A stretch of DNA of 64,000 bases, taken from an uncultured Candidatus Poseidoniales archaeon (lineage in GTDB: Archaea; Thermoplasmatota; Poseidoniia; Poseidoniales; Poseidoniaceae). The notes beneath the pieces were generated by a model, which saw nothing but the letters and a program-made list of their open reading frames with translations, had not been told where the DNA came from and did no database searches. The position numbers were made by a program, and so were the translations under genes. Positions 3,001 to 30,169 of this stretch are shown here, piece by piece; positions within the stretch are counted from its first letter, which is position 1; the number at the start of each line of letters is the position of its first letter. The stretch spans positions 30,760 through 94,759 of the forward strand of contig CAJJAV010000006.1 of the NCBI GenBank assembly GCA_905182125.1. The letters are read 5' to 3'.

Positions 3001-6000
3001 GGATTGCTTCAGGGCGAGCGGCAAACCGATGGAACGATGGATTGGCAGCAAGGATGGACAATGATTGCAAACACTGTGGTCAAAGACATGAAACTCATGG
3101 GCACTGACCTTTACATCACGACAACCCCAACAGGGCTCTACAAACTCGACACCTTAACCGGCGTACTCAGTCGAGTCGGCGGAGCTTTGCACAACAACAT
3201 GGATGGGCTTTTCGCCTATGGAAACACCTTCGTCATCGGGTTGCAAGGTAGTTCAGGTTCAGCAGCTGGAGTCCAGGTGTACGACCCGAACACAGGCTTC
3301 GGAAACGGCAGGTTGCTTGGCGGCCTGCCCTCAAACAACGTCAACGCATTCACTGAATCCTCAACCATGCTCTACATCGCGACCAACGGAGGAATCGGAC
3401 GATGGGACTACGCACTATCGGATTGGATAAACCCGCTCACGACGAGCGATGGGCTACCAACAAATGTAATCGAGGATGTTCAGTTCCTCGGGACCGACCT
3501 CTGGATTGCTACAGCAGCGGGTGTCGTCAAAATGGACACGCTCACCAACGCAACAACCCTCTATTCGAGTGGCACGGGCCTCATGGCAACCTCGGCACAA
3601 TCCTTGACCACTGCCGTCACTACCGCTGTTGTCAATGGCACCTCATCAACTTCCACTTCCCTCTTCATCGGCCACGATGGTGCGGGATCTGAACGGCCTG
3701 GCGTCACCAGCGTCGACTCGACGACAAACGCCGTTACCTGGCATAAATTCGATCAACTGTCATCAAACACTGTTGATGCTTTGGCTGCAGACTGGTGGGG
3801 CTTGCATATTGCAACGGACATCGGTCCAATGACCCATTACAACGGACAATCCAATCAATTTGAAGATGGGGCTCCGTCCTTCCAAGTTGCTGGGTGGCCT
3901 ATACAGAAGATGGTCAGCGATGGCGATCATGTCCTTGCCATTGGTGAAAATGGCGCCTCAATTCTGAGCGCTCGCACCCCATCGCATGCAACCCTCAAGA
4001 TGTTCCAAGGCCCCGGGATGACAGGCGGTACAATCACAACCGACGCCATCTGGCTGACAACCGATTACATCGGCCTCTTTGGCTATGAAAACAACGCTCA
4101 ATACTCCGAAATGGAGCGGTTCTCACTTCGCAAGGCAGATCCATTAAGCGTTGGATTCAACCTTCAATCCCTCGACATCAGTGATATGACCCATCCTGGA
4201 ATGCCAATCACATTGGCAGACGCTTCCAACACCGTTTCCCTCGACCCGGCGTTTGGCGTTGAAGGCACAAACGGAATCATGTTCCAAACGGTGCCGTTGG
4301 CGTTCACTTCTCCGGTAAACAACGCAGCCACATGGGCGAAATCTGTCAGCCTGAAGTACAACGCAACCATTGAACTGAACAACAACCCAGATTTCGAAAC
4401 CACAATGCAACTCGCTGTTGATAACGGCGTAATCATCAACGGAACTCAATTCCTCCAACTGACACTCCGCTCACCGTCGAATGGCTCACTACATGTTCGT
4501 CTGATGTACGATTACATCAAGGTCGAAACACCAGTTGAACTCACTGATTTAGTTGATCGCACAGATGATGGCGGTGGCGCATTGCTCGCCGATTGGAGCC
4601 TTGTTCACGATGAAGACTTTGCACGTTACCTGATTTATGTCAACGAAGGCCCATTCATTGTGGGTGGAATGATTGATGACTTCGATTTAACAAATCGCCA
4701 AATTGACAAGGCCATTTCCCTGCACAGCCGCCTGTCGAGCGATATTACGACTGCAAACGGTGTGCCGTTGGTCGACGGGACAGACTACTACGCAATCATC
4801 GTTGTCGAATATGACGATGGTCGCTTGGGCACCCCATCAGCGGTGCTCGGCCCCGCCTCACCAAGTGACGAAGTACCTCTACCGCCAATTTGGGCGAACG
4901 CTGGACCTCACGAAGGTGGCGAAGATGGCGATCTGGATGTCGAATGGGCACGATGCACAAGCCTCGACTTAGTTCAAACAAACATCTATCCTTCCACTCA
5001 ACCAATAACCGATGTATTGGGTCTCACACCTCAATCTGAAGTCATGAAGATGGAAGGGAATTCGACGGTGCTTGCACTTGAACCAGGCCAGCCGTATTGG
5101 CTCGGCCTCACGTGTGTCGACGAAGCTGGGCAAGAAGACATGTCGAACGCTCTCATCGTTGGACCATTCGTTCCAACCGGTGGCTTGAACGACAACACGG
5201 CTCCACCAAAGATGGAAAACGTTGCAGCCATTGACACACCTGACGATGACGGCGGACGAATCACCGTTTCATGGGATGTGAACCCGGCAGAAGACTGCAC
5301 CTTCTACGCTATCTTCATGCGCCTCTGGGAAGATGCTGATGCCGAGATAGATGAGCAAGTTTTATTCACAGAAAGCGGGTTTTCTCAGGCTAAAATCATC
5401 AACGACTGTTCTGAAGAATCAACGATCGTCGCAAGCATCGACGGGGTTGCACTCCAAGACGGGCAGATGTACTATGTTGGCGTCGTGGCTTACGATGATT
5501 GGTTGAACGTCAACCTCGAAGATGTCGACCTCATCAACGTCACACCGCTCCGGAACACCGCTGGAAGCGGCACGACCCCAAGCCGAATCACCTCGGTTCA
5601 ATCCTTCGATCATCCGGAAGATGACGGAACTGCAATCGATGTACTGTGGTCAATTTCTGATGCGGACGATTTCTCCCATTACACGGTGTGGGCCGCTGAT
5701 CAACCCCTCACAGACCTCTCCGCTGCATGGGCTGCGTTTGGTGAAAACTCGGACCTTTGTGGATGCCTTAAAATCAACAAACAATGGGTCGATGAAGAAT
5801 TCAATCCAATCGAGGTTACCATCTCCACCGCCCTCTATGGTGGCCAAGGTAACATGATGGACATCACCCAGACGACGCCACAACCAATTCGGCCCAACAT
5901 CGAACTCTATGTTGTCGTGACCGTTCATGACCTCGCTGGCAATGTGTATCTCACGGACCTGGTTCAAGCAACAGTCACTCCAATCGACAACGAACAAGAC

Positions 6001-7149
6001 GATGAGGCTCCTGCTCGTCTTGAAGCGATTGATTTGTTCGATCGTCCAAACGATGATGGTAGCGCACTGATGCTTGGATTTGATTTGAGCGCAGCAAGCG
6101 ATGTTGGATCCTACGAAGTCTACGCCGCAACATGGTCGTTCACGAGCGTCGGACCAGGAACACTTGGCCCAAGCACACCAATTGCCATACTCGAGCGAGC
6201 TCCGACCCTCCCGGTTACCATTGACTTGGTTGCCGGCGACACACCAGTCATACCGGGCCAAGAAATTTGGGCTGTTGTTGTGGTGCGAGACACCTCGGAT
6301 AACGCATTCACCTCCGACCTCGTGGCCGTGTCTTCACAATCGGTTGACGATGGTGTTGATGCAAAGGGCGATTACTTGCCTGATGTGAGTGGCATCGCCC
6401 TTACCTGGGTTGACGAAACCAATATTTTGGTGACATGGACGCTTTCGCAGAATGAAGACATTGAAGGCTACAACATCTACATCGCTGAAGAAGAATATTC
6501 GACGACCTTGGAAGCAACTTGGTTGGCTGGGGTGAAGCAGTCAAACTCCTTCCTGATCACATCTGATTCCTTTGGAGACCTCACCAACGCCACGGCATGG
6601 TATGTGGCCGTGAACGCTGAAGACAACCTGTTTGAGAAACAAGCCGTTTCACCCGTTATGCTGGATGCTTTCAATGCTGATGGAAGTGGAAACAATGGCG
6701 AAGAAAGCACCAACGATGGCGCTGAATTCTCATCGCTTTTGACCACTCCTAACATGCTTGCTGCAGGCTTGTTCCTAACAGCAATGATCCTCTTTGTCGC
6801 CGTGGTTCGATCCCGTGGAAATCAACGTGGCCGTTCCAAATCATGGGAACTTCAAGAAGCAACTTGGGGCATTCAAGACGACCAAGGATGGGGTGACGCT
6901 GGTGCAACAGCACCGACTGCGCCGCCAACGACTGCAGCACAACCAGCTGCCGTTGCGGCACCTGCAACCAACATGTACGCTCAACCAGCAGGCCAGCAGG
7001 ACATCTATGGAAGGACGCAATACCAACCAAACCAGCCTGTCATGCAGCCAGTCCAGAACAATAATCTGTTAAACGACCTTGGTGTAGGAAATGCACCAGC
7101 TCAACCAGCGAAGACCATTGACACATCCTTCTTGGATGACTTGCTCTGA
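1..7149 (+). CDS. Giant secreted/surface protein, 5' partial: repeated beta-propeller (Reg_prop-like) region, then fibronectin-III-like repeats, C-terminal TM helix and Ala/Pro/Gln-rich cytoplasmic tail
   Basis: Frame 1 is open from base 1 (the ATG at 73 is internal). Repeats such as 'GLPSNNVNAFTESSTMLYIATNGGIGRWD' and 'GLPTNVIEDVQFLGTDLWIATAAGVVKMD'. Later 'D.P.DDG......W' FN3-like repeats. TM 'MLAAGLFLTAMILFVAVVRSRGNQRGRS'. Confidence 0.85.
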   Translation, partial: LAQSGNTLYILNGDSIHTYNTASNVFSGSQSIEDFGLTSEGQELILWPTSGARSPASELMLLSDGNGALVELTPGSTPLNTGVLLLGSGPTTEQMIDATELDGVLFVATDDQYLNRFDTQTSRWIEPVFIGADINRLSNDGNHVYIAADNGAHQMHNNGTVLQTWDTTNTALSSNEVTVVQSDGSTVVVLNEFYSEFLAINLTGSQPVVFESIVLDTGSVTDAALHNGVAYVGTQNDGLLRYHIVNNTWLTPWISTGVNGANEVPVAVVGDILYFGIPGYGVARKDLSTGELMIPLTAAGNTPGQGAATSSLPSDNIYALESDGANLYIGTQQGASRWDGNQMTTFGQGSSWDTRPQQFYDFVAISSISGGDLYAGTNIGVCKYSIATLGINECLNVYDGMPNWATYSIGAGISNSYLFGGTNSGVGIITTSPFEVVGEWTAGEQTNNAPVVVIGDVAFIALDGIGIARYDLPNDEWLTLWTDDNVLDDGNEDATAISADMNPNYIWIGGADGFQLLNATTGAEIYDIEKTSSLFAGNGDPLDMILKGTVMYYHDGASSDNLYRFDVQSFTSLPALDAGAQVGQNNGDVNGMNLIGDIIMISVASQNWWQVDGSGGIAQFNTSNGSWGENILPIGQVDRVTAYQSSTGNMWVSWGENSLQYMDANGTLLGEWDDGDFEFPIREIIEYDGEVMFATEDGVARYNESAGQWLSEWTPGSGLPNDAGDQIYELWTDGTDLVVGSGEVNGFGQFRNGAISHWDGATWNNYETGSNGLPNGYPITMTECAGIVHIGIYANNGGVARFDMANDSFLTTFREADWNENYGEVSGVACDSADTLYVAFYEDEADVKKYSYTSNTWLNPITTANHNLPSDRVWWDAIDYSNSMLVLGHGIGTSGDNLIGGGYSAVATSGGSTAQVAFNGQGSSVTSFQWLTSEWLVGQAGGSSGYSHVDTISSLGQNTLLDFPGLVSGQVTSMAGNSTHLWISTQGAIQGFGQGGSAGAGLLQGERQTDGTMDWQQGWTMIANTVVKDMKLMGTDLYITTTPTGLYKLDTLTGVLSRVGGALHNNMDGLFAYGNTFVIGLQGSSGSAAGVQVYDPNTGFGNGRLLGGLPSNNVNAFTESSTMLYIATNGGIGRWDYALSDWINPLTTSDGLPTNVIEDVQFLGTDLWIATAAGVVKMDTLTNATTLYSSGTGLMATSAQSLTTAVTTAVVNGTSSTSTSLFIGHDGAGSERPGVTSVDSTTNAVTWHKFDQLSSNTVDALAADWWGLHIATDIGPMTHYNGQSNQFEDGAPSFQVAGWPIQKMVSDGDHVLAIGENGASILSARTPSHATLKMFQGPGMTGGTITTDAIWLTTDYIGLFGYENNAQYSEMERFSLRKADPLSVGFNLQSLDISDMTHPGMPITLADASNTVSLDPAFGVEGTNGIMFQTVPLAFTSPVNNAATWAKSVSLKYNATIELNNNPDFETTMQLAVDNGVIINGTQFLQLTLRSPSNGSLHVRLMYDYIKVETPVELTDLVDRTDDGGGALLADWSLVHDEDFARYLIYVNEGPFIVGGMIDDFDLTNRQIDKAISLHSRLSSDITTANGVPLVDGTDYYAIIVVEYDDGRLGTPSAVLGPASPSDEVPLPPIWANAGPHEGGEDGDLDVEWARCTSLDLVQTNIYPSTQPITDVLGLTPQSEVMKMEGNSTVLALEPGQPYWLGLTCVDEAGQEDMSNALIVGPFVPTGGLNDNTAPPKMENVAAIDTPDDDGGRITVSWDVNPAEDCTFYAIFMRLWEDADAEIDEQVLFTESGFSQAKIINDCSEESTIVASIDGVALQDGQMYYVGVVAYDDWLNVNLEDVDLINVTPLRNTAGSGTTPSRITSVQSFDHPEDDGTAIDVLWSISDADDFSHYTVWAADQPLTDLSAAWAAFGENSDLCGCLKINKQWVDEEFNPIEVTISTALYGGQGNMMDITQTTPQPIRPNIELYVVVTVHDLAGNVYLTDLVQATVTPIDNEQDDEAPARLEAIDLFDRPNDDGSALMLGFDLSAASDVGSYEVYAATWSFTSVGPGTLGPSTPIAILERAPTLPVTIDLVAGDTPVIPGQEIWAVVVVRDTSDNAFTSDLVAVSSQSVDDGVDAKGDYLPDVSGIALTWVDETNILVTWTLSQNEDIEGYNIYIAEEEYSTTLEATWLAGVKQSNSFLITSDSFGDLTNATAWYVAVNAEDNLFEKQAVSPVMLDAFNADGSGNNGEESTNDGAEFSSLLTTPNMLAAGLFLTAMILFVAVVRSRGNQRGRSKSWELQEATWGIQDDQGWGDAGATAPTAPPTTAAQPAAVAAPATNMYAQPAGQQDIYGRTQYQPNQPVMQPVQNNNLLNDLGVGNAPAQPAKTIDTSFLDDLL

Positions 7150-16362: not shown

Positions 16363-17163
16363 TCACTCTGCCCAGGGGTCTTCACCGTCGGACCAACCTT
16401 CTGCGGAGGCCTCTTTGGCTCCCACTTCGGCGGCTTTGGATGGTTCCTCTGCTGGTGCTTCTGCTGGTGCTTCTGCGCTGGTGTCCGAAGTGCCCTCTTC
16501 AAGAGGTTCTTCGACTGCTTCATCAGCAACGATTTCAACGGTAGATGAATCGGTGTCAGCGGTGATTTGTTCTGCCTTTTCGATGGTCATGTCGGCTGCT
16601 CGTGCATCGACCATGTCGTCCATTCGCTCAGTAAAGGCACGGGACATGTGCTGTGATTTGCGCTCGGCTTCGACCGCTCGCTCAATCATCTCATAGCGTT
16701 GCTTGATGGCCTTGTTGAGGTCTTCGAAGATTTGCATGTGATCGACGTACCAGTCGTCACGGGCCTTCATTTCTGAAACGGCGAGGCGGAGATCGTTGTC
16801 GAGTTCTTCTGCAATTCCAAACACCTTGCCGAGGCGGTCTTTTTCACGGGAGTACTTCTCTTCCATCTTTTCGAGTTCTGGCTTGAGATGTTCGACTTGC
16901 TTTCCTGCCTTTACAGCACGAAGTTCGAGTTCTCGGACCCGGATTTCACGCTCATTGAGGAGCGCTTCTTGGGTTTCTTTCTCGATTTCCCGTTCAATGA
17001 TTTCCTTTTCGAGGACTTCATTTTCAGTTCGTGAGTCAAAGAGGTCCTTTTCTACAGCTTCATACGCTGCAAACAACTTCTGGAGACGGTCCGTCTCAGT
17101 CGAGAGTTGTTCCTCAAGTTGCTGGATTCGAATCTCTGGCGTGACGGTCCCTTCTTCTGTCAT
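16363..17163 (-). CDS. Coiled-coil protein with acidic/Ala-rich C-terminus
   Basis: Heptad-like E/K/L-rich sequence; likely start 'MTEEGT' preceded by GGTGA. The track ORF begins at 17268. Confidence 0.6.
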   Translation of the reverse strand: MTEEGTVTPEIRIQQLEEQLSTETDRLQKLFAAYEAVEKDLFDSRTENEVLEKEIIEREIEKETQEALLNEREIRVRELELRAVKAGKQVEHLKPELEKMEEKYSREKDRLGKVFGIAEELDNDLRLAVSEMKARDDWYVDHMQIFEDLNKAIKQRYEMIERAVEAERKSQHMSRAFTERMDDMVDARAADMTIEKAEQITADTDSSTVEIVADEAVEEPLEEGTSDTSAEAPAEAPAEEPSKAAEVGAKEASAEGWSDGEDPWAE

Positions 17164-17264
17164 GGTTTCACCGGGAGGCAAGCCTCCATGCGAGTCCACC
17201 GAACTCCACCCTATCAAGCCGACGCCTAAACGACCCCGTAAATCGCCTTGAATGCGCGCGTTGG

Positions 17265-18230
17265 TCATTCGCAGAGGGCGTTGGTTGCTGACACGAGTTC
17301 GCGAGCAATGCTTACTTCACCCATTGAATGTCCAGCGTCTGGCACCATAATCAAGCGACTGTTTGGTAATACTTTGTGCAACTCCCAGGCACTGCGGGCA
17401 GGACAAACCACATCATATCGGCCCTGTACAATCACCGTAGGAATGTGTTCAATAATGGATGCGTGGTTGAGGATATGTGCTTCTTCGACGAAAATGGCGT
17501 TGATGAAATAGTGGCATTCGATGCGCGCAAAGGCGACTGCGAAATCCAAATCATCTGCTTTTTCGAGGTAAGATGGATCAGGGAACAACCTGCTCGTAGC
17601 CATCTCCCATCGGGTCCATTCCTTTGCTGCAGCACGACGAACTTCGCCATCTTCACTGGTGAGGCGGGTGTAATAGGCTTGGATCAAATCTGAACGTTCT
17701 TCTTCTGGAATGTGCTCCCTGTAGGGTTCGAAAGCATCAGGGAATATGTGACTGGCACCGTCTTGGTAGAACCATTTCAGTTCACTCTTTCTGCACATGA
17801 ATATGCCTCGTAGAACGAGACTGATGACCCGTTCTGGGTATGTTTGGGCATAAATGAGGGAAAGCGTCGAACCCCATGAACCTCCGAAGACGTGCCATTC
17901 TTCAATGCCAAATGACACCCGAAGCGCTTCAATATCAGCCACCATTGCCTGAGTTGTGTTGTCTCTCAATTCGGCATGAGGTGTGGATTTGCCACAACCG
18001 CGTTGATCGAATTGTATGATGTGAAATTGCTCGGGGTCGAAGTATTGTCGGTAAGCTGGTTGGCCTCCGCCGCCGGGACCGCCGTGGATCACGACAACTG
18101 GAATTCCTTCTGAGTTTCCTGTTTTTTCCCAGGCGATTGTATGAAGGTCCGTCACTTGAAGCGTTCCGGCCTCATAGGCATCAATAGGTGGGTAAAGCAC
18201 ATCTTCGAGTGTGGCGGTTGTGTCCAGCAT
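17265..18230 (-). CDS. Proline iminopeptidase-like alpha/beta hydrolase
   Basis: 'VVVIHGGPGGGG', 'DQRGCGKSTPHAELRDNTT', 'VFGGSWGSTLSLIYAQTYPERV'. Confidence 0.85.
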   Translation of the reverse strand: MLDTTATLEDVLYPPIDAYEAGTLQVTDLHTIAWEKTGNSEGIPVVVIHGGPGGGGQPAYRQYFDPEQFHIIQFDQRGCGKSTPHAELRDNTTQAMVADIEALRVSFGIEEWHVFGGSWGSTLSLIYAQTYPERVISLVLRGIFMCRKSELKWFYQDGASHIFPDAFEPYREHIPEEERSDLIQAYYTRLTSEDGEVRRAAAKEWTRWEMATSRLFPDPSYLEKADDLDFAVAFARIECHYFINAIFVEEAHILNHASIIEHIPTVIVQGRYDVVCPARSAWELHKVLPNSRLIMVPDAGHSMGEVSIARELVSATNALCE

Positions 18231-18309: not shown

Positions 18310-18930
18310 ATGACCACCCGAGCGGCTACTGATTTGTTTTCAGAATGGGCGAACAAGAACAAGGACGAAGGTATGGAGCGCGGCCATGCAGCCTCTGTCA
18401 CTGCGATGCTGAACTTGGCTCTGGCCAAGGTTGGACGACCGTTTTCCGCCATCGATGTCGGGTGCGGAAACGGATGGGTCTGCAGAGCCCTCCAAGCAAC
18501 TGACGGGTGCACGCATGCGGTGGGCGTCGATGGTTCACAGGCCATGATCGAGAAGGCACGCAGCCTTGGCGATGGAGAATTTCATCTCGCTCTTTTACCC
18601 GAATGGCAACCAAGCGAGCGTTTTGATTTGCTTCACTCAATGGAATTCCTCTACTACCTCCACGACCCGGCCACGATGCTCAAAGCACTGCATGATGGTT
18701 GGTTGAGCGATGGTGGTGTTTTGGTGGCCGGAGTGGACCATTACCTCGAAAACGATGACAGTCACGGATGGCCTTCCGCTTTGAATGTCCACATGACATT
18801 GTTGAGTCAAGCACAATGGGAACAAGCCATGAACATGGCTGGGTTTGTTGATGTTGAGATGCATCGAGTCGCAGCAACCGATGATTTTGTCGGCACGCTC
18901 GTCATGATGGGTCGTAAACTGGCCATCTAA
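18310..18930 (+). CDS. SAM-dependent class I methyltransferase
   Basis: 'FSAIDVGCGNGWVCRALQ' motif I, 'VGVDGSQAMIEKA'. Internal start chosen over the track start at 18211. Confidence 0.75.
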   Translation: MTTRAATDLFSEWANKNKDEGMERGHAASVTAMLNLALAKVGRPFSAIDVGCGNGWVCRALQATDGCTHAVGVDGSQAMIEKARSLGDGEFHLALLPEWQPSERFDLLHSMEFLYYLHDPATMLKALHDGWLSDGGVLVAGVDHYLENDDSHGWPSALNVHMTLLSQAQWEQAMNMAGFVDVEMHRVAATDDFVGTLVMMGRKLAI

Positions 18931-21900
18931 GCTTCTGCGTCAAAAGGTCCGAGCCCGAGGGGGCTGCCTGCTGGACCGCACAGCCGAACATCGCCAGTGT
19001 AAAATGGACACGTTTGACAGGGTTCCGAGGTTTCAGAATCAAGACGCTCTGGCTCATCCAGTGTTTCGGGAACCACGGCGAGGTGACCGATCCACTCGAG
19101 TTGATCATCGAGGTCTTTTCGAGCTTTGACAAATGCTCCAGGGGACAACTGTATCATTCTCCCCGATGCTCCAACGAGCAAGGCAGGTGGAAGGATGGTT
19201 CGTTGTTCTTCAGCAGGTTTGCTCATCTCAATCGCTTCGAGCGCCATGGAATACAGTGTCAGTTGAAGGCGGTGTTCCTTCAAAAGAGCACGCTCTGCAT
19301 CAGTGGATGGTTCTGGATTGAGCACGTCACCCTTGTACTGTTGAAGCGCTGTTCCCTTGGAGGGATTGGCGGCATTAAATCCATCGCGACATCCCTTTGT
19401 TTTGAGGTCGACAATCTGGAGGAAACCTTGGTTGGATTCATTGCGAAGGGCAAGCACAAGGTCCGCCCGTCCGTCAAAAATCAAGGTCAGCGCTTCGATC
19501 GTGGCATGGTTGATTGGTTCGACGACATCGAACGTAGTTCGCTTCAAACCATCGACATCAACGCTGTGAGAATGGTAGAAAGGCAATTCTGTCCGCAGAC
19601 CCTCAACCGTGAGTCCGAAGTGGGTTTCACCTGCTGCTAATTTTCCAAGCAGACCCTCTCGGACGAGCGCCCCAAGTTCGACTAAACGTTCACCTGCTCG
19701 TTTGGCGACGTGGCTTGAGGCATCCTTTCCTTGTCGAATATACCCCTCTTCGGCAAGGACAACATCGATCATGGCCTCGTCATCAAGCCCGTCTTTCCCT
19801 TCAAACTGCCAGGCGGCAGGGAGAGGGATTGAGTGAGGCGCTGCGTGGAGTGAAGGGTTGGCCAGGCCAAGTTCCACCAAACGATGCATCATCGTTCCAA
19901 ACACAGTTGCGAGGGGATACTGGCTCGATGTTCCTTTCGATTCTTTCTTCACGCCAATCAAGTTGAGTTTTTCCGGCACCCACCCTTTGACTTCGGACAG
20001 CCAATGACGGCGATGGCAGAGGTTGCTGGTGTCCAGTCCGTGAGCAGTCATACGAACGGATTCCATGACCATGAGCGGCGGAGTTTGCGGTTGGGGTTCG
20101 ACCGGAAGGTCTTCAATCCGTTGTTCTAAGAGGCGCCAATCTTCCAAAGGCGTGCTTTTCTGACCTGCTTCAAAACAGTCTGGATGGTGATAAATTCGAA
20201 CCGATTGGATGGCATCTTCGCCCAACTTGGCGTTTTGAGAGAGTGCGAACGGGTCGAGTGTGAGGGTTGTTTTGTCGTAAGGAGGCAGGGTTTGATGGGA
20301 TAAATCCCCGGTCAACAACCAGGGTGAGTCAGCGATTTGGCCTTCGTGGGCAAGGCTTCTGAGCCCTTCAATCCACATGCCTCCCATGGTTTTCCTCGAT
20401 GCTTTGGATTCAACCTCAAGTTCACCCGACGCCGCATTGATGGTTGATGTGTTTTTGTGAGCACCGACAAGGATCAAACGGTCCCGTGCTCGTGTGAGCG
20501 CGACATAGAATGAACGTCGGCGTTCTGCTTGAGTCTGGGCTTGATCCAGTTGAAGGGTGAACTCCCAGAGTCCGTCTTGGGGTCTGGTAAGGGAGCGCCA
20601 TGGATTGATCCGCCCGGCAATAATTTGGGGCGTCACAAGCACGTTTTCTTTGGTGTTCAGTTGTGTATCCGAGGCTCCTGCTTTGAACAAGCCAGCAACA
20701 AACACCACATCGGCTTCTAACCCCTTGGCGTTGTGCACCGTCATGATTCGAACAGCCCCTCCAGCTGGAACATTTGTTGCCGAGGGGCCTTTTTGGCGCA
20801 ACCGTTGAAGTTCACACATCCGTTCATGGATCGCTGCTGCTTCATGGCCGAGTTCATTGCCAATCGAAGCCGCTAAACTGTACCACGCCTCTGCATTTTG
20901 CCGATCTGTGTCCTCTGGGAAAGCAACGAGTAAATCTGAATGGTCAAGCACCGCATCGACGACTTCATACAGCGCTCCTTTCCGAACAAGGCGACCTAGA
21001 TGAGCCACTAAGGTAGCGATGTTCTTGTTCGGTGCATGGTGTTCCAGATGGTTCCACCAATCGCTTTCTGGTGCTTGTTCCATCATGGTCTGGATTTGGC
21101 CATCAGTAAAACCGAGCACTGGTGAGCGGGCAATACCGAGCACGGCCGCCCTCGAACCAGGGTTGGCAATCAGATTGAGCAAAGCCATCAAGGGTTGAAC
21201 GATTGGCCTTCCAAGCAAACTCCCTTGCCTGTCCGCAACCACAGGGATGCCTCGTTGTTGTAGACGGCGAATGAGGTCTGGAACGTGCTTCCGAGAATGA
21301 ACGAGGATCATGACATCTGAAGGATCGACGGCTGCGTCTGGGCCCTCGACGTCGCGGAACGCTCTGTCCGCTGCGCTCCATACCTGGGTGGTTTGGCCTT
21401 GAAGAAGCGCTGAAAGCCGACCAGCAATCAGTTCGTGTTCGAGATGTATGTCCTTCGATTTCTGATTTGAAAACACATCGACGGGCACCGAAAGGTCAGA
21501 AGAAACATCGCCTTCTTCTGTGCTCAACGGCATGAGCCATTCAAGGACACCGGGGGTGTTGCCTGACGGCCTGCCAGCGTCAAGGTCCTGCGCTGTAGCA
21601 TGCCATTCACCAGGTAAAAGGTGATGCCGTGGATGAAACACATCTCTGAAAATTCCATTCATGGCGTGAACAAGATTGGGTTTGGTCCTGTAGTTGCTGG
21701 TGAGATCAATGAGTCCGTGCTGCCTGAACATCTGCCTGTCCCCACCCGAGAATTCTGGTGCGTAGTCACCGGTATCGGTTCCAAGACTTACATGCGTCCA
21801 TGCCTGTGAAACAACTTCGCCTGGTGCTAACGCATCAGCCGTGATAAATGCTGAAGTCTCACCGCCCGCTCCAAGTGGTCGTGGATCCCGCCCAAAGCCC

Positions 21901-23921
21901 TCTCGACGAACTTCTGGTGGCCATCGACTTTCGTACAATTCATTCTCATTGGCAGCCATAATTGCGGCGACTGCGCGCCTCATAACGGACACCTCTGCCT
22001 GCCGGAATCTGTAGATGCTCTGTTTCATATCCCCGACGATACAAACGGTTGGATCCCAAGGGCCGAGCGGTCGTTCTGGCTCGCCGTGATGCAAAACTCT
22101 GTGGCCCCACAAGCGTGCTAGAAGGCGGAAATGGGCAGGGTTGGTGTCTTGATATTCATCGATGATGAATGCACGGTATTGCCGGCGAATGGTTTGCAGA
22201 ACGTGGTGCCTTCGTTGCAAATCCAACGCACATGCTTCGTCATCTCCTGCAAGCGTGAGCGCTCTGGAAATATGATGATCGCTCCAAGGTTCGTTGCCTA
22301 GGCCATCCAGGGCCTCAACAACGGCAACTGGATAGTCAAATCGAACCATGTCTGGGCACCGAGCAAGCAGTAAATCTGCTGCAAGGTTTTGGATGTCATC
22401 AAAATCATGCACCCCTTCATGCGCCTTCAGTTGGGCAAGAATATCTTTGCAAGCCTCGTGAACCCTCAGCAGATCCAAAAGAATCTGAGACTGTAGCGCT
22501 GCACCAACCCTCATGTTTCCAACATCGCCCATCGTTTCGGGGAGTTGGACTTCGAGTTCGGTCAAACTGTACGTGCTGCCTTCAGGAATGTAAGGGGATT
22601 CAATGGCAGGCGAAAGTAACGTGGCACTGCGGCCCATTAAGCAAATCAGCCGTCCGGTTTGAGAGTTGAGCATGTTTGACATCGTTTGACCAAGTGCTTT
22701 TGCACTTGCATTAATCGCATCTTTTTGGGCCCCAGTCACGCCTTTAGCCTTGGATTTGGGGAGCAAGCCTGGGTGCCAGCCACTGGTACTGGCTGGAGGA
22801 AGGGCGCCCTTTGGGAAGAAGGTGGTTTTTGTCCCATCTGTTTTGATTTTCCCTCCTGCTGCAATCGCCGTGTTCCAGACCCATTGCATACGAAGCAAAG
22901 GTTCCTGTCCGAAAGCATGGCGCGCCATGTGACGCAGATGGTTGAAGCGTGTTTCCGGCCCACCTGCAACCACCTGTGCGGGATCGATGTAGGATGCTGC
23001 GTGAGGCAAGTACAGGTCGATGTAATCATTTAGAAGAGCATGAAGTTCCACAGCAAAAGAATCGATGTCCTCGGCAATCGGTTGCAAAAACATCTCCAAA
23101 AACAGCTGTTCGGGGATCTGAGTGTCATGGCCAAACGGTGCCCCTAAGCGCAGTGAGTGGGCCTCAATGGCTCGCTTCGATTCCTCTACGAAGAGGGATT
23201 TGTTGAGCATGCCTGACAACACGACTGAGGCTTGCTCTTGGCCACCAAGCGCAACAGCGAGCCGGTTCCTAGCCTCGATGAAGGAGTTGACGTAGCCCAG
23301 AACACCTGCTTCTTGGGCATCATTAACGGTTCGAATTCGCCATGCTGAATGCAGGGCTTCTTCAATCAATAACGGTGCTCGTTCTTGGGCGATTTGCTCG
23401 CGGCTCGGATGGACTGCCACCAAATCCAAGTGTGGGGCAAGCAATTGTGAAAGGAAGGCGTCAATGGTTGAAATTGGTGCTTCATCAAGCGATGAAAGGA
23501 GCATTTCCACGTCGGCATCCGAACTGATTCTCGGATCAAAGATACCTGCGTCATCGCCGGTTTTGACCGGTGATTTCCGGGTCGCTGCGACCCGCGCTCT
23601 GATTCGTGCCTTCAGTTCAGAAGCGGCTTTCCTGGTGAATGTAATTGCCACGACTTCGCTTGGAAGCAAGCCTTGCCATGCCTTTCGTTCTGTCCGTTCA
23701 CGCGCCGGAGCGCGCAGTGAACCGTGCCCGCTCAAGGGCTCTCGTGGGCCATTTGGAAGGACCAATGTTGAGCGTTGAAGAGGTGAAATCAAGTGCTGGA
23801 CATAGCGCTCAGCCATCACCGTAGTCTTCCCTGTTCCTGCACCGGCATCAAGGGCGATGTGCCGGTCGATATCAAGGCCTAGGCGTTGACTGCGGTTGAA
23901 TGGGATTCGATTGTTGCTCAA
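18927..23921 (-). CDS. AddA-like UvrD-family helicase with C-terminal PD-(D/E)XK nuclease domain
   Basis: Walker A 'ALDAGAGTGKTTVMAERY', 'VVAITFTRKAASELKARI', 'AFIIDEYQDTNPAHFRLL', 'FYVALTRARDRLILVG'; nuclease 'FDGRADLVL...IVDLKTKG'; Cys pattern 'NLCHRRHW...SEPCQTCPFYTGDVRLCG'. Confidence 0.85.
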   Translation of the reverse strand: MSNNRIPFNRSQRLGLDIDRHIALDAGAGTGKTTVMAERYVQHLISPLQRSTLVLPNGPREPLSGHGSLRAPARERTERKAWQGLLPSEVVAITFTRKAASELKARIRARVAATRKSPVKTGDDAGIFDPRISSDADVEMLLSSLDEAPISTIDAFLSQLLAPHLDLVAVHPSREQIAQERAPLLIEEALHSAWRIRTVNDAQEAGVLGYVNSFIEARNRLAVALGGQEQASVVLSGMLNKSLFVEESKRAIEAHSLRLGAPFGHDTQIPEQLFLEMFLQPIAEDIDSFAVELHALLNDYIDLYLPHAASYIDPAQVVAGGPETRFNHLRHMARHAFGQEPLLRMQWVWNTAIAAGGKIKTDGTKTTFFPKGALPPASTSGWHPGLLPKSKAKGVTGAQKDAINASAKALGQTMSNMLNSQTGRLICLMGRSATLLSPAIESPYIPEGSTYSLTELEVQLPETMGDVGNMRVGAALQSQILLDLLRVHEACKDILAQLKAHEGVHDFDDIQNLAADLLLARCPDMVRFDYPVAVVEALDGLGNEPWSDHHISRALTLAGDDEACALDLQRRHHVLQTIRRQYRAFIIDEYQDTNPAHFRLLARLWGHRVLHHGEPERPLGPWDPTVCIVGDMKQSIYRFRQAEVSVMRRAVAAIMAANENELYESRWPPEVRREGFGRDPRPLGAGGETSAFITADALAPGEVVSQAWTHVSLGTDTGDYAPEFSGGDRQMFRQHGLIDLTSNYRTKPNLVHAMNGIFRDVFHPRHHLLPGEWHATAQDLDAGRPSGNTPGVLEWLMPLSTEEGDVSSDLSVPVDVFSNQKSKDIHLEHELIAGRLSALLQGQTTQVWSAADRAFRDVEGPDAAVDPSDVMILVHSRKHVPDLIRRLQQRGIPVVADRQGSLLGRPIVQPLMALLNLIANPGSRAAVLGIARSPVLGFTDGQIQTMMEQAPESDWWNHLEHHAPNKNIATLVAHLGRLVRKGALYEVVDAVLDHSDLLVAFPEDTDRQNAEAWYSLAASIGNELGHEAAAIHERMCELQRLRQKGPSATNVPAGGAVRIMTVHNAKGLEADVVFVAGLFKAGASDTQLNTKENVLVTPQIIAGRINPWRSLTRPQDGLWEFTLQLDQAQTQAERRRSFYVALTRARDRLILVGAHKNTSTINAASGELEVESKASRKTMGGMWIEGLRSLAHEGQIADSPWLLTGDLSHQTLPPYDKTTLTLDPFALSQNAKLGEDAIQSVRIYHHPDCFEAGQKSTPLEDWRLLEQRIEDLPVEPQPQTPPLMVMESVRMTAHGLDTSNLCHRRHWLSEVKGWVPEKLNLIGVKKESKGTSSQYPLATVFGTMMHRLVELGLANPSLHAAPHSIPLPAAWQFEGKDGLDDEAMIDVVLAEEGYIRQGKDASSHVAKRAGERLVELGALVREGLLGKLAAGETHFGLTVEGLRTELPFYHSHSVDVDGLKRTTFDVVEPINHATIEALTLIFDGRADLVLALRNESNQGFLQIVDLKTKGCRDGFNAANPSKGTALQQYKGDVLNPEPSTDAERALLKEHRLQLTLYSMALEAIEMSKPAEEQRTILPPALLVGASGRMIQLSPGAFVKARKDLDDQLEWIGHLAVVPETLDEPERLDSETSEPCQTCPFYTGDVRLCGPAGSPLGLGPFDAEA

Positions 23922-26900
23922 CGTGATTCACCTCCGAGGACAGAAGATGGGCAAATCGACCTGACATTACAAAAAGAACACGATGAACTTGGAACGGGGT
24001 GGATATGGCCTGAGGCGGCAGTGTCCACTGCTCGGCGAGCGGTCTGAAGCCGTTCATTCATCCATGCGCGGAACCCATTGCTCTGATAGGATTCATCATC
24101 AGAAAATCGGAACTGGTTGGCGGTTAGGAGCGTGCGTTCACCAAGCGAAAGCCCGTCGAGGTAAGGTTCGATTTCTGGATCGATTTCCACGTAGTGGGTC
24201 GATCCTTCACCGACTTCCATGACGCCGACACCAACGACTCGGTCACCGGGATGAGCAAGTTCCCAAGCCCGCGCATACAGGCCCAATTGAATTTCATTGA
24301 ACAGGGCTTTTAGGTGGCGCTTCCCGCTCTCGCCAACCTTTGGACCATTGACGGTTTTCAAATCACGAATAATCACCCAACGGCGTGCTGGCCCACTCGA
24401 TGTTGGGTTTCGAAGATTGAGAGGTGTTGTGGCATCGCCGCCGGGTAAAAGCAGGTTGTCTTTGATGGCTCTTGCTTGCAACTCTTGACTCAGAATCACT
24501 TCGTCAACCCGGTCCACATTCCCTCGAATGTTAAAGGGGCGGAGTTCGCCCGAATCATTGACTGCATCAACTTCCACAAACGATGAATCGCCGTTGGAAA
24601 CTGGCCATTCGCAGGCCAGTGGTCCTGCGTTTTCAAGTGCGTAGTCTGCTTCTAACATTCGCCAGATCCGGCCCCCTGCTACGAGCACGTTTTCACCATC
24701 GAGGTGTGCACGCCATGCTTCAGGGTCGACGCCCAGAAGATCGCGGCATCGGTGGGTGGCAATGGCATCATTTCGAGTCAGCCAAGGAACGTTTTCTTCG
24801 AGGTGGACCAAGATGGCTTGCCATCCCTGAACTGGGGCTGGACTCGGCCCGAGGTGCAAAGGCGTCGGTTGTTGTTCTGTTTCGCCACCGGTTGGAACGC
24901 CATGGGCCGCCAGAAGGGCTGCTTCAGCATCGTGAATAATCTGACCGCGTGTGCGGTGATCGATGTCTTCGAGTTCGTCTTCTTCACCTTCAGCTTGCAG
25001 ATGACCAGTCACCCAAGCTTGTCGCGGGCAAGAAAGCCAAGGCTGCAAACGGCTTGCCGACCACACCTTTCGATGGACGCCAGGTGAACGGACGCCGAGG
25101 ACATCGGGGAGGGCACCTTCGCTCAATGGCGTTGGAGGGAGAGGACGTGGGTCGATCGAAACACCCCGGCTGACTTTGTTCTTGCGCATGCCCAAATGAG
25201 GCCATACCGCTTGCTCTCGGCTGCCGATTTGGGCTTGATTGAGCGTCGGGTCGAGCGAAAGAAGGTCTGTTGAGACCAAACGATTTCGAGCATCCCATGG
25301 CATGTATTCGAGATTCTCAAGATCGTCAAACGAAGGTTGACGTTGCTTACGATCGTTCAGAACTTGTGCTTCGTACGCCATCGCCAAACCGGGCACTGCA
25401 TTGATTCGGCCGATGGCTTCGCGGTCTTCTCGCAACCCTAATCCGATGCGTTGGCGCTCATCTCTTGGCCTGTGTCCAGAGCGCAGCCCACTGACAACGC
25501 CACCGCTCGCATGCATCGTGAATGGGCGGGGTGTCAGCCAAGTGTGTTCAGGCGTCGAAGGGTCGATTTGCCACGCTCTTCGAGGATCTTCTCCACTGAT
25601 TGCTTCACTCGGCACAAATTCTGGGGCGCCTTGGTAAGACAAAAAGTCCCCATCCCGTTGCGAATCTGCTAGCCATTCAGCAAAAGGTGCTGCAGGACCA
25701 CCACCCTCCTCAAGGGTGCTGTCGAACACAACAACTGTCGAGCCTGCTTGCATCAAATGGCGCAAATGATGTCGCCCTCTGCGCACGGCTAAATCAGTGT
25801 GAAGCATACCCAATTTCAATTTGGTTGGAGCATCGAGCCAAGGCACTTTAGGGAGTTTCATCGACCAGGCATCGACATCCATGCCGACCAGTAAAATCAG
25901 ATCTGCCGAGACCCCATGCGCCTCTTCTGGCGTTAAGACACGGACATCTTTACTGGAGGCTCGTTCGCTTGGCATTTTGGTTTCTGCTACAAGGCGTTCG
26001 AGGTATTCGATGAATGCCAACCCTGCCTTAGGTGTGTCGAATTTGGCTTTCTGGAGGAGTGTTTTCGCATCATGGTGGGCTGTGGAAAGATGTTGCAGTG
26101 CTGGCAAGCTGCGGTCGTAATCACCAACCCTGTCACTTAATGCCGTCCAATCCAAGTGAGAAAGAATGTGGTTCAGCCACGCTTCCCCGGTTTTGACTAC
26201 AGCTGGAAGAGGGAGGGTGTCACCCGAGATGCATCCCGCAACACGCTCCCCAAGCGTTTCTTGATCATCGCCTTCAATGAACGGGGCCCACACTCTGGCG
26301 ACACATGCAAGCCACCACTGCGTTTCTTCAAGGGCTCGGCGGGCCTGATCTGAATCTCTGCCGAGTTGAGGTTGAGCGTTTGCTAAGGTTCGTGTCCACC
26401 GGGTGAGTGCTCCCGGCCCGCCACGAACGTGGAAACTTCGCGCCATACTTTCGAGAACCTCTGGATGAGGTTTTGGAAACCAACCTGCGACACTGGGGTG
26501 CTGTAATTCTGGCACCCCACCGTTGAGGAGGGGCAAGGCTTGATGCGACGTTAGACCACGTAGTTGGGGCATGGACCATGCTTCTGCACCGACGCCCAAT
26601 CGTAGAAGTCGTGTCAAATGATTGATGCCTGGTACCGCATTCAAAGACTCTGTTCCTCGGCCCAAATTCACTCCAAGTTCTAACAACCGGGACCGCCAGA
26701 GATCGATTGTTGATGTTGCTTGGCCGTCGATGATCAAAATTGACCCTTTGTTGGTGGCTTTGAAATGCCGCACGAGGTCGATGGCCGCGTCCAATGCATG
26801 CATTCGTTGGTGCAGTTGCACCCTGTGGATGTCAGGTTTCGAGGCGGTGTCGTTGTTTGCTGCGCTCGCAGAAGTGTGGACGCTGTGATGTGGCACCCAC

Positions 26901-27655
26901 GACGGGAGGTCTTCTTGCCCGACGTAAGGTACATCCTCAATGTAGGTGCCGTGGTGCCCAAGACGGAACGAACCAGGATTGCATAGTTGATGAATTGGGC
27001 GATGCATCGAAAGCGCACGGAGCAAGCTGATCTCGGTTTCAGTGTAATCTGGTGCGGCGTCCAAAATCAAAATGCCATCGACATCGTTCAAGGTAAAGGG
27101 GGTTGTGGCTGTTTCTAAGGCCTTGACCAAGGAGGACTCAACCAAAGAGGGGTGAGTCCCCTCTAATCGTTTTCCCACCTCTCGAAGAACGCGGTCCAGT
27201 TCTCTCGCCCCTGGATCTTCTTCCCACGTCCAAGGGTGATCAAGGTCCATCAGCGCCCGATGAAGGGACAGGATTCGCTCCGTATTGTAGGGCCTCCACA
27301 CTCTGTTTTGTTTCGTGGGAGCGAACAGCAAGGGCAAGTCTCCTCGTTCCGCTGCTTGCTTGGTGAGTTCGTGAACTACATTGAACAACGTTGGACCGTC
27401 TTGTAATTTACGAGGTCGTTTCAAATCGAGATGGACAAGGTCGACCAGTCGCGTCAGCGTAAGATGGTGGGTCGTATCGACGGGTAGCCCGTGGCCAGAA
27501 AGCAAACTAAGAGCTTGGCTTCGAGCTTCTTCATTCGGATAGAGGACAAGAAGGGCGTGCCCCTCTCGTGCCAGAAGAGCATCCTTCAACCACACGGGGA
27601 AGTGCTCGCCAACGGGCTGCACTTCGATGGTGATGGGAGGTTGTTCTCGATTCAT
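23918..27655 (-). CDS. AddB-like nuclease subunit, C-terminal PD-(D/E)XK domain with Fe-S-type cysteines
   Basis: 'SRLQPWLSCPRQAWVTGHL', 'RGNVDRVDEV...VIIRDLKTVNG', 'NEIQLGLYARAW', 'CSFCNVRSICPSS'. ATG/stop overlap with the addA-like gene. Confidence 0.75.
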   Translation of the reverse strand: MNREQPPITIEVQPVGEHFPVWLKDALLAREGHALLVLYPNEEARSQALSLLSGHGLPVDTTHHLTLTRLVDLVHLDLKRPRKLQDGPTLFNVVHELTKQAAERGDLPLLFAPTKQNRVWRPYNTERILSLHRALMDLDHPWTWEEDPGARELDRVLREVGKRLEGTHPSLVESSLVKALETATTPFTLNDVDGILILDAAPDYTETEISLLRALSMHRPIHQLCNPGSFRLGHHGTYIEDVPYVGQEDLPSWVPHHSVHTSASAANNDTASKPDIHRVQLHQRMHALDAAIDLVRHFKATNKGSILIIDGQATSTIDLWRSRLLELGVNLGRGTESLNAVPGINHLTRLLRLGVGAEAWSMPQLRGLTSHQALPLLNGGVPELQHPSVAGWFPKPHPEVLESMARSFHVRGGPGALTRWTRTLANAQPQLGRDSDQARRALEETQWWLACVARVWAPFIEGDDQETLGERVAGCISGDTLPLPAVVKTGEAWLNHILSHLDWTALSDRVGDYDRSLPALQHLSTAHHDAKTLLQKAKFDTPKAGLAFIEYLERLVAETKMPSERASSKDVRVLTPEEAHGVSADLILLVGMDVDAWSMKLPKVPWLDAPTKLKLGMLHTDLAVRRGRHHLRHLMQAGSTVVVFDSTLEEGGGPAAPFAEWLADSQRDGDFLSYQGAPEFVPSEAISGEDPRRAWQIDPSTPEHTWLTPRPFTMHASGGVVSGLRSGHRPRDERQRIGLGLREDREAIGRINAVPGLAMAYEAQVLNDRKQRQPSFDDLENLEYMPWDARNRLVSTDLLSLDPTLNQAQIGSREQAVWPHLGMRKNKVSRGVSIDPRPLPPTPLSEGALPDVLGVRSPGVHRKVWSASRLQPWLSCPRQAWVTGHLQAEGEEDELEDIDHRTRGQIIHDAEAALLAAHGVPTGGETEQQPTPLHLGPSPAPVQGWQAILVHLEENVPWLTRNDAIATHRCRDLLGVDPEAWRAHLDGENVLVAGGRIWRMLEADYALENAGPLACEWPVSNGDSSFVEVDAVNDSGELRPFNIRGNVDRVDEVILSQELQARAIKDNLLLPGGDATTPLNLRNPTSSGPARRWVIIRDLKTVNGPKVGESGKRHLKALFNEIQLGLYARAWELAHPGDRVVGVGVMEVGEGSTHYVEIDPEIEPYLDGLSLGERTLLTANQFRFSDDESYQSNGFRAWMNERLQTARRAVDTAASGHIHPVPSSSCSFCNVRSICPSSVLGGESR

Positions 27656-28115: not shown

Positions 28116-29321
28116 ATGACAAATAGGAACATGAATGGAAAAGATGACTGCGTCGAATGCGGTGCCGGTAAGATGGAACTGGACGCCGAAAAGGGCGAAC
28201 TCGAATGCAACACCTGCGGCATTGTCGCAAGTTCGGCTGATATCCTTGATACGAACCCTGGCAAGACCACCTATGGTGGTGAATCCGCAACTCATGAAGT
28301 GGTTCGCAACAACTGTGACCAGAACGCCAACATGGGAACAGGAGGCGGTTACATGGACACAAAGGGGCTTTCAGCAAGCGAACGCAAGAAGTGGAACCGA
28401 CTACGTAAAGTCAACCGCAGTACAACGCGACTCAAGCACCCTCTTGCTGAAGCAGTTCGTAAGAAGATCAAGGAGATGTACGGTTCCTTCGCTATGCAAG
28501 CGGCTGAACCGTTCGTCAAAATGATGTGCAAACCGCTCAAGGGCAACTTGGAACTGCAACGTCAAGCCCTGGACAATAAGGCCCTCAAAAAGCAACTTGG
28601 TATGCCCAAGCAGAGTATTTGTCGCAAGAAGACCGGGGTCCGGGGCAAAAGCACAGAACTCAACATCATCCTTCTGGCCATGGCAGCTGTCGAAGTCGCA
28701 GGCGAACTGGGGTTGCTCTCAAAGATGGACCGAAGGGCCGGAATGGCCCAGCACGACCTCACACGGAAGCAACTCGTCAATGCCAAGCGAACGTTGCTTA
28801 ACCACTTCAAAGCCCGAATCAAGATGGGTTGGGAAGAGAAGCCGCCAACAAAGACGCCCGATGACATTCGAGAAGATGGGGTTGACCAAGCGGTCGAGCA
28901 CATTCACGACATGCTGGATGAGTCTCTTGGTGAAGAACTGCTGGATGAGGTGAACTACGAGACCGAAGCACGGCTTGCTTTGCTTGGTGAAGGCAAGACG
29001 AGTGCACTGACTGCGAACACCGAAGTCCGCATGGCGGTTTGCGTCGCCTTCTTCGCCACCTTGGTCTCGATGGGCTTGCAAGCAGGCATGGCCGATCGGC
29101 TTGGCGCTGTGTTTGGCATGACTGGCAGTGGCATTCGTTCTCGCTACGAGGCGTTGTCTGCGGCCGAAAAGGCTGGCGAAGGCGACTACAACGGTGTCTT
29201 TCTTCGATGTGAGATGACGTGCTTAGAAATCCTAGCCACGCTGCAACCAGCCCACACGTTGATACAACGGGTCGGGCTCGGTGAAGTATGGTCAAACAAG
29301 GAAGGCTCTTCAGTCTCTTGA
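28116..29321 (+). CDS. TFIIB/TFB-like transcription initiation factor, divergent core domain
   Basis: N-terminal zinc ribbon 'CVECGAGKMELDAEKGELECNTCGIV', then 'KGLSASERKKWNRLRKVNRS' resembling the TFB linker; weakly conserved cyclin-fold region. Confidence 0.75.
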   Translation: MTNRNMNGKDDCVECGAGKMELDAEKGELECNTCGIVASSADILDTNPGKTTYGGESATHEVVRNNCDQNANMGTGGGYMDTKGLSASERKKWNRLRKVNRSTTRLKHPLAEAVRKKIKEMYGSFAMQAAEPFVKMMCKPLKGNLELQRQALDNKALKKQLGMPKQSICRKKTGVRGKSTELNIILLAMAAVEVAGELGLLSKMDRRAGMAQHDLTRKQLVNAKRTLLNHFKARIKMGWEEKPPTKTPDDIREDGVDQAVEHIHDMLDESLGEELLDEVNYETEARLALLGEGKTSALTANTEVRMAVCVAFFATLVSMGLQAGMADRLGAVFGMTGSGIRSRYEALSAAEKAGEGDYNGVFLRCEMTCLEILATLQPAHTLIQRVGLGEVWSNKEGSSVS

Positions 29322-30169
29322 TTACGCTCGTGCTATGCTCTTCTGGAGCAAGCGCAGGGGTTGCAGAAACCCTTGAGGCAGGAGCCGTCTTTGGCGGCCA
29401 ATCCACTCAAGCCAACGAGACTTCAGCCAGCATTGTTAACCTGAGCGAGTTGCCAAACATCGTCGAAGTTTACACCGCCACATGGTGCTCCAACTGTGTG
29501 GACGTGGAGCATGCTTTGGATGATGTCGAAGCAAATGTTTCGATGCAACAATACCACATACACCGTTCGATTTCAGAAGTCCAAGACCCATTCGGAACCG
29601 ATATTATCGACAAAAGGTTCCACGATCGCTATGGCCGCTGGTCCCCACCAGCAGTGGTGTTTAACGGTACCACGATGGTGAGAGGGAGTGTTGCACAATC
29701 TGACAGCCTTCAGCAAGATTTCACCACCATAGTCGAACAACCATTGCTGCTTGGAAACGGCAGCAGTACGTTTGGTTGGACGCCCATGAGCGATTCCAAA
29801 GGGACCGTGACATGGAACCTCGATGTCGAAATGGCACAGTTTGGTGAAGGTACTCTTAGCGCCTACCTCTGGGTGGTCGAAGGGTCTGCATACTTCGAAG
29901 AAGGCTCCAATGGCCTCGGCGATTACCCTCACATCGTTCGAGACATCATACACCTCGGCAACGATACCCAAGGGAGCATGAGCGTTGACCTACCTGCAAC
30001 TTTTGATGGAGATGATCTCTCTGTCCACCTTATTTACCAGTTCAATCCCTTAATCCCTGAGGAACCGGTCGTTCCAACGCCAGTTGTGGATGAAGAAACC
30101 GTTCCCTTTCTCTCCAGCATATCGACGCTCGCTATGGTTGGTGTTGCTGTAGCCGTTCGCCGTTCATAA
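29288..30169 (+). CDS. Secreted/membrane-anchored thioredoxin-like protein
   Basis: Signal peptide 'MVKQGRLFSLLITLVLCSSGASA', 'EVYTATWCSNCVDVEHAL' CxxC motif, C-terminal hydrophobic segment. Confidence 0.7.
   Translation: MVKQGRLFSLLITLVLCSSGASAGVAETLEAGAVFGGQSTQANETSASIVNLSELPNIVEVYTATWCSNCVDVEHALDDVEANVSMQQYHIHRSISEVQDPFGTDIIDKRFHDRYGRWSPPAVVFNGTTMVRGSVAQSDSLQQDFTTIVEQPLLLGNGSSTFGWTPMSDSKGTVTWNLDVEMAQFGEGTLSAYLWVVEGSAYFEEGSNGLGDYPHIVRDIIHLGNDTQGSMSVDLPATFDGDDLSVHLIYQFNPLIPEEPVVPTPVVDEETVPFLSSISTLAMVGVAVAVRRS

Follow-up and report, generated by a model that had tools for sequence, protein, structure and literature searches.

An enlarged and highly diverged AddAB-type helicase-nuclease across the archaeal order Candidatus Poseidoniales

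We analyzed a 64,000-nucleotide stretch (hereafter, the window) of contig CAJJAV010000006.1 from an uncultured Candidatus (Ca.) Poseidoniales archaeon, in which two overlapping genes encode an AddAB-type helicase-nuclease that is enlarged and highly diverged. The AddAB of this order is real, order-wide and strongly diverged, its origin in the order predates the order's radiation, and it is most likely the main end-resection machine of these organisms. AddAB and RecBCD are the bacterial resection machines, the archaeal ones being Mre11-Rad50 and HerA-NurA (PMC12977600, PMC6452273). Ca. Poseidoniales (Marine Group II) comprises two families and 21 genera and shares its class, in the phylum Thermoplasmatota, with Marine Group III (PMC6461757). 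A literature search, with most subscription journals outside its coverage, returned no report of AddAB in the order.

Results

The gene pair and its assignment to the AddAB type

The two genes lie on the minus strand, at the positions and with the overlap given in a preliminary description made from the sequence. The addA start and the addB stop share four nucleotides (TTG/TGA), and most other order members likewise have overlaps of 1-10 nucleotides between the two genes. The genes and their catalytic motifs are as follows, with residue conservation, here and below, counted over 21 sequences of the order.

23918..27655, minus strand: addB-like gene, 1245 amino acids (aa), ATG start; helicase-like N-terminal part without Walker A, C-terminal PD-(D/E)XK nuclease, four conserved cysteines
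18927..23921, minus strand: addA-like gene, 1664 aa, TTG start; superfamily 1A (SF1A, UvrD-type) motor and C-terminal PD-(D/E)XK nuclease
23823..23846, minus strand: AddA Walker A, AGAGTGKT, aa 26-33; nearly invariant
22146..22166, minus strand: AddA helicase motif II, IIDEYQD, aa 586-592; D588, E589, Q591 and D592 invariant
20487..20507, minus strand: AddA helicase motif VI, YVALTRA, aa 1139-1145; Y1139, V1140 and R1144 invariant
19251..19886, minus strand: AddA nuclease catalytic core, H1346...D1487...D1505-x-K1507...Q1553...Y1557; six residues invariant, 21/21
24275..24934, minus strand: AddB nuclease catalytic core, H908...D1048...D1098-x-K1100...Q1123...Y1127; invariant or nearly so

The 1664-aa AddA has UvrD-helicase N, UvrD-helicase C and PDDEXK_1 domains, and the 1245-aa AddB has a PDDEXK_1 domain (E 2e-13). 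A pattern search of the window AddB gave no match to Walker A, just as the preliminary description had it, and the pair consequently has one motor and two nucleases, which is the AddAB arrangement. The features of the AddAB-type superfamily found here are an SF1A motor in one subunit, a catalytic PD-(D/E)XK nuclease in both, an adjacent AddB that is homologous over its length to bacterial AddB and, by sequence, the four AddB staple cysteines.

Profile and fold comparisons point the same way for each subunit. The top NCBIfam match for AddA is TIGR02785, the AddA of Gram-positives (E 1e-52), and a PDB search with a profile of 21 order AddA sequences ranked Bacillus subtilis AddA first (E 3e-38), followed by AdnB and RecB. 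The best fold match for the predicted model of the AddA C-terminal part is the AddA of the AddAB crystal structure. For AddB, the order profile matched the AddB neighbors of bacterial AddA genes, the best being that of Bordetella (E 1e-11), and hhalign aligned it with 18 AddB sequences at 99.8% probability (E 2e-30, 908 columns). The top five PDB matches of the predicted AddB model, which is of low confidence, are all AddB chains (E down to 3e-15), with AdnA next. We assign the pair to the AddAB type because of these AddB alignment and fold matches, the match to B. subtilis AddA and the invariant catalytic residues in both nucleases; the earlier proposal of an AddAB-like helicase-nuclease in an archaeon is accordingly upheld.

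Distribution in the order

The outstanding feature of this AddAB is its order-wide fixation. Our sample of the order comprised 115 genomes from the two families and 21 genera, and AddA was found in 112 and AddB in 110 of them, with all 21 genera represented. The two genes stand side by side in each of the 20 order loci compared for synteny. The locus is largely syntenic, the neighbors that recur across both families being a divergent gene for a 293-aa protein, the gene at 16363-17268 and a gene of the beta-eliminating-lyase family.

Other resection and recombination genes

Other resection genes were sought in 15 order genomes (among G000-G023), one of which is a single contig. The models for NurA, HerA and SbcD/Mre11 each found nothing in any of the 15, and nor did a Rad50 query, which was one diverged sister sequence. 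As a positive control, the SbcD model was run on 14 control genomes and matched 13, every one of the four archaea among them. HerA was found in three of four sister class-mates, an Mre11-like protein in all four and NurA in one. RadB is a paralog of RadA that is present in most other Thermoplasmatota sampled. In all 15 order genomes the RadB model gave a full-length match solely at the RadA locus, with no separate RadB; nine other Thermoplasmatota scored over its cut-off, and the class-mates show separate matches. RadA itself was over its family cut-off in 28/28 genomes, all 15 order genomes and the source genome of the window included. The preliminary description had asked whether the genome also carries HerA-NurA, and the answer from these genomes is that neither was found, nor were Mre11, Rad50 or RadB.

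The absence of Mre11 is the most telling of these results, because mesophilic archaea such as Haloferax are reported to do without HerA-NurA yet retain Mre11-Rad50 (PMC7776575). With AddAB order-wide and the usual archaeal machines not found, the order probably repairs broken chromosomes by a pathway that begins in bacterial style and continues with an archaeal recombinase. We lean toward the view that the whole order swapped Mre11-Rad50, HerA-NurA and RadB for a bacterial-type AddAB feeding RadA, as a hybrid pathway fixed since the order's ancestor.

Cysteine motifs of the two subunits

The preliminary description had noted cysteine patterns around both nucleases, and both are present.

20016..20018, minus strand: AddA first staple cysteine, C1302 (NLCHRRHW); 19/21
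18978..19019, minus strand: AddA C-terminal cysteines, C1635, C1638 and C1648 (CQTCPFYTGDVRLC); 19, 18 and 14 of 21, respectively
25028..25030, minus strand: AddB first staple cysteine, C876 (LSCPRQAW); 21/21
23951..23980, minus strand: AddB C-terminal staple cysteines, C1226, C1229 and C1235 (CSFCNVRSIC); 21/21

All four AddB cysteines are invariant, down to ~28% identity. The four-cysteine motif of AddA is intact in 14 of the 21 order members and eroded or lost in seven, of which one belongs to the first family and six to the second. As judged from the alignments, the patterns of both subunits are not due to chance, and within the order the AddA motif is less constrained than that of AddB. 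The staple cysteines may bind a [4Fe-4S] iron-sulfur (Fe-S) cluster; in a related nuclease structure, zinc occupies the same four cysteines (PMC3466216).

A contrast had also been drawn with canonical AddAB, in that both subunits here have Fe-S-type cysteines. This contrast did not hold, as the motif is shared by a minority of bacterial AddAs and is eroded or lost in order AddA in 7/21. The four cysteines were aligned in AddA of Thermoflavimicrobium (Bacillota), a Tissierellia bacterium, a planctomycete and a myxococcote, with AddA C1302 aligning with C926 of Thermoflavimicrobium, C937 of the planctomycete and C865 of the Tissierellia protein. The first three of these bacterial AddAs each adjoin an AddB with C-terminal cysteines (loci L137, L138 and L145, from Thermoflavimicrobium, Planctomycetota and Tissierellia); these pairs differ from that of the order in being bacterial and of standard size, and the likeness is one of cysteines, which need not mean nearest kinship. 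Since some bacterial AddAs share the four cysteines, the order is not alone in having such motifs in both subunits, and in the aligned sequences a minority of bacterial AddAs have the four-cysteine motif too; the proposition that Fe-S in both subunits is unique was therefore rejected. Some AddBs show a wider C-x3/4-C spacing, and the type-1 Thermoplasmatota AddB do carry cysteines.

Phylogeny and origin

Two AddA trees were built that took in UvrD, UvrD-Cas4, AdnB, RecB, bacterial AddA and proteins of other Thermoplasmatota. The order AddA sequences form a single clade with a support of 100, and the stem leading to it measures ~1.3 changes per column. The attachment of this clade among the RecB, AddA and AdnB lineages had weak support. 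The phylogeny that the preliminary description had called for thus gives order AddA a clade of its own. In approximately unbiased (AU) tests, a constraint uniting order AddA with every other AddA, RecB and AdnB left outside, gave a p-AU of 0.62 (in the free tree the order stands alone on a long stem next to RecB and AddA), and a clade of order AddA with other Thermoplasmatota AddA gave 0.56, the constrained tree scoring slightly better. Neither placement was rejected.

A lateral entry of AddAB into archaea, as had been suggested from the sequence, is plausible, though the trees and AU tests single out no donor. The alternative is that AddAB is ancestral to Thermoplasmatota, or to archaea, with no separate lateral gain in the order, and this is compatible with the function proposed below. 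The slightly better score of the constrained tree favors it, and archaeal AddAB is not confined to the order, because other Thermoplasmatota families have standard-size AddA/AddB pairs (others have UvrD-Cas4 fusions) and the haloarchaeon Halorientalis persicus has an AddAB-type pair (locus L154, 2606-9816). Against it, the distribution in the phylum is patchy, with no AddB found in most of it and no AddA or AddB match in six sister class-mates sampled (the class holds one further sampled family), and in the free trees the other Thermoplasmatota AddA fall among bacterial AddA, away from the order. We regard ancient inheritance as possible, if on balance doubtful.

A viral origin or carriage was also considered and rejected, as neither alignment turned up a relative when viral contigs were scanned with it. 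At four loci of other Thermoplasmatota (L122, L123, L126 and L127), AddA-like proteins of ~990 aa stand beside partners of ~830-905 aa that end in CxxCx5C; these partners are possibly unrecognized AddB-like proteins, and two that were checked had no NCBIfam match. Other Thermoplasmatota families (L125, L132 and L133) have UvrD-type helicases whose C-terminal end resembles Cas4.

Comparison with known systems

The closest likeness is to bacterial AddAB (of B. subtilis and others), which pairs one UvrD-type motor subunit with a helicase-like one, carries a PD-(D/E)XK nuclease in both and the four staple cysteines in AddB, and supplies the top sequence and fold matches of the order proteins. The order system differs in its archaeal host, with RadA in place of RecA, in the additional four-cysteine motif of its AddA, and in the length of that protein, which is 1544-1698 aa across the order vs. 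roughly 1050-1280 aa in most other AddA compared. Compared with AddA of bacteria and of other Thermoplasmatota, order AddA has inserts in the motor half, among them aa 47-81, 524-570 and 662-735, and smaller extra segments in the nuclease half.

AdnAB of Actinomycetota is likewise a two-subunit helicase-nuclease, and Streptomyces AdnA has CxxCx5C. However, both Streptomyces subunits have Walker A, which the window AddB lacks, and AdnB is a clade of its own in the tree, so that the order pair falls outside AdnAB. RecBCD shares the RecB-type motor-nuclease architecture; RecB is nevertheless a separate clade, the nuclease core of the order partner is intact, unlike that of RecC, and the two-gene unit of the order has no RecD-like gene. 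The UvrD-Cas4 fusion is a single PcrA-type/Cas4 protein, in contrast to the two-gene system and separate clade of the order, which places the pair outside that group too. HerA-NurA and Mre11-Rad50, the standard archaeal resection systems, would have the same presumed role and are unrelated to AddAB as proteins.

Discussion

In AddAB, AddA moves in the 3'-5' direction, cutting the 3' strand; the 5' strand is cut by AddB, whose staple holds the end. We are fairly confident that the whole order Ca. Poseidoniales uses the AddAB described here to process the ends of double-strand breaks and to supply RadA. Heterodimer formation, polarity, resection function and hand-off to RadA are what we infer by analogy with the characterized enzymes. 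AddB, a motor-dead, helicase-like and putatively Fe-S-stapled nuclease, would hold the broken end and cleave the 5'-ended strand, and AddA, as the sole ATP-driven motor, would draw the 3'-ended strand through. The AddA nuclease would trim this strand until a putative switch, in the form of a Chi-like site or of some competing factor, spared it, and the spared 3' single strand would then be bound by the archaeal recombinase RadA.

Several points weigh against this interpretation. The case for this function is built on genes, alignments and predicted models. The TIGR02785 score of AddA is 179.3 bits against a curated cut-off of 707.65, so that the protein is placed at the superfamily level only and not at the equivalog level, and the curated NCBIfam AddB models gave no significant match to the window AddB. 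Both subunits are therefore distant from the characterized enzymes, and the divergence claimed in the preliminary description is evident from scores so far below the AddA and AddB equivalog cut-offs. The AddB model is of poor quality as a whole (mean predicted local distance difference test score, pLDDT, 55.7), and the cysteine region of the AddA model is mostly below a pLDDT of 50. The absence of the archaeal machines rests on 15 genomes, of which 13 are estimated to be 91-97% complete, and the absence of Rad50 is weaker than that of Mre11, because several genomes from elsewhere likewise gave no match to the Rad50 query.

A different role is conceivable, in which the enzyme is mainly an antiviral helicase-nuclease that degrades foreign DNA ends, comparable to GajB and the UvrD-Cas4 fusions, and breaks are repaired by an unrecognized nuclease. 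PADLOC GajB helicase models match the AddA motor, and UvrD-Cas4 fusions, which occur in other Thermoplasmatota, have been linked to defense (PMC5704561). However, the GajB matches are generic UvrD motor matches, the tree separates AddA from the UvrD-Cas4 clade, the partner of AddA is a full-length AddB, and a largely syntenic, order-wide locus among housekeeping-type genes contrasts with the patchy occurrence of defense genes, all of which make a mainly antiviral role unlikely. That the pair is bacterial contamination of the metagenome bin is effectively refuted by the order-wide synteny: the source assembly (1.85 Mb) is in 31 contigs and estimated to be 82% complete and 3.4% contaminated, but pair and locus are shared by more than 110 genomes, including a single-contig order genome of 2.1 Mb, and an MCM helicase gene and a GatB/GatE gene lie near addAB within the window.

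Three further genes of the window, all on the plus strand, may be recorded. The 293-aa protein (29288-30169), to which no family was assigned, is encoded divergently near addB and adjoins it in nearly all 20 order loci; a functional link to addAB is possible. Between this gene and addB, in first-family loci only, lies a gene (28116-29321) whose protein product evolves fast and has a weak zinc ribbon of the TFIIB type. An open reading frame of 2358 aa (73-7149) had no Pfam match at E 1e-5.

If our interpretation of AddAB and RadA is correct, an abundant marine order with a core bacterial-type AddAB, and with the archaeal parts undetectable, would mean that the central resection step can be swapped wholesale. 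The order would also allow one to ask whether AddAB delivers DNA to a Rad51-type recombinase, RadA, rather than to RecA. The extra cysteine motif of AddA, eroded or lost in several lineages while that of AddB stays, offers a natural test of the role of the motif.

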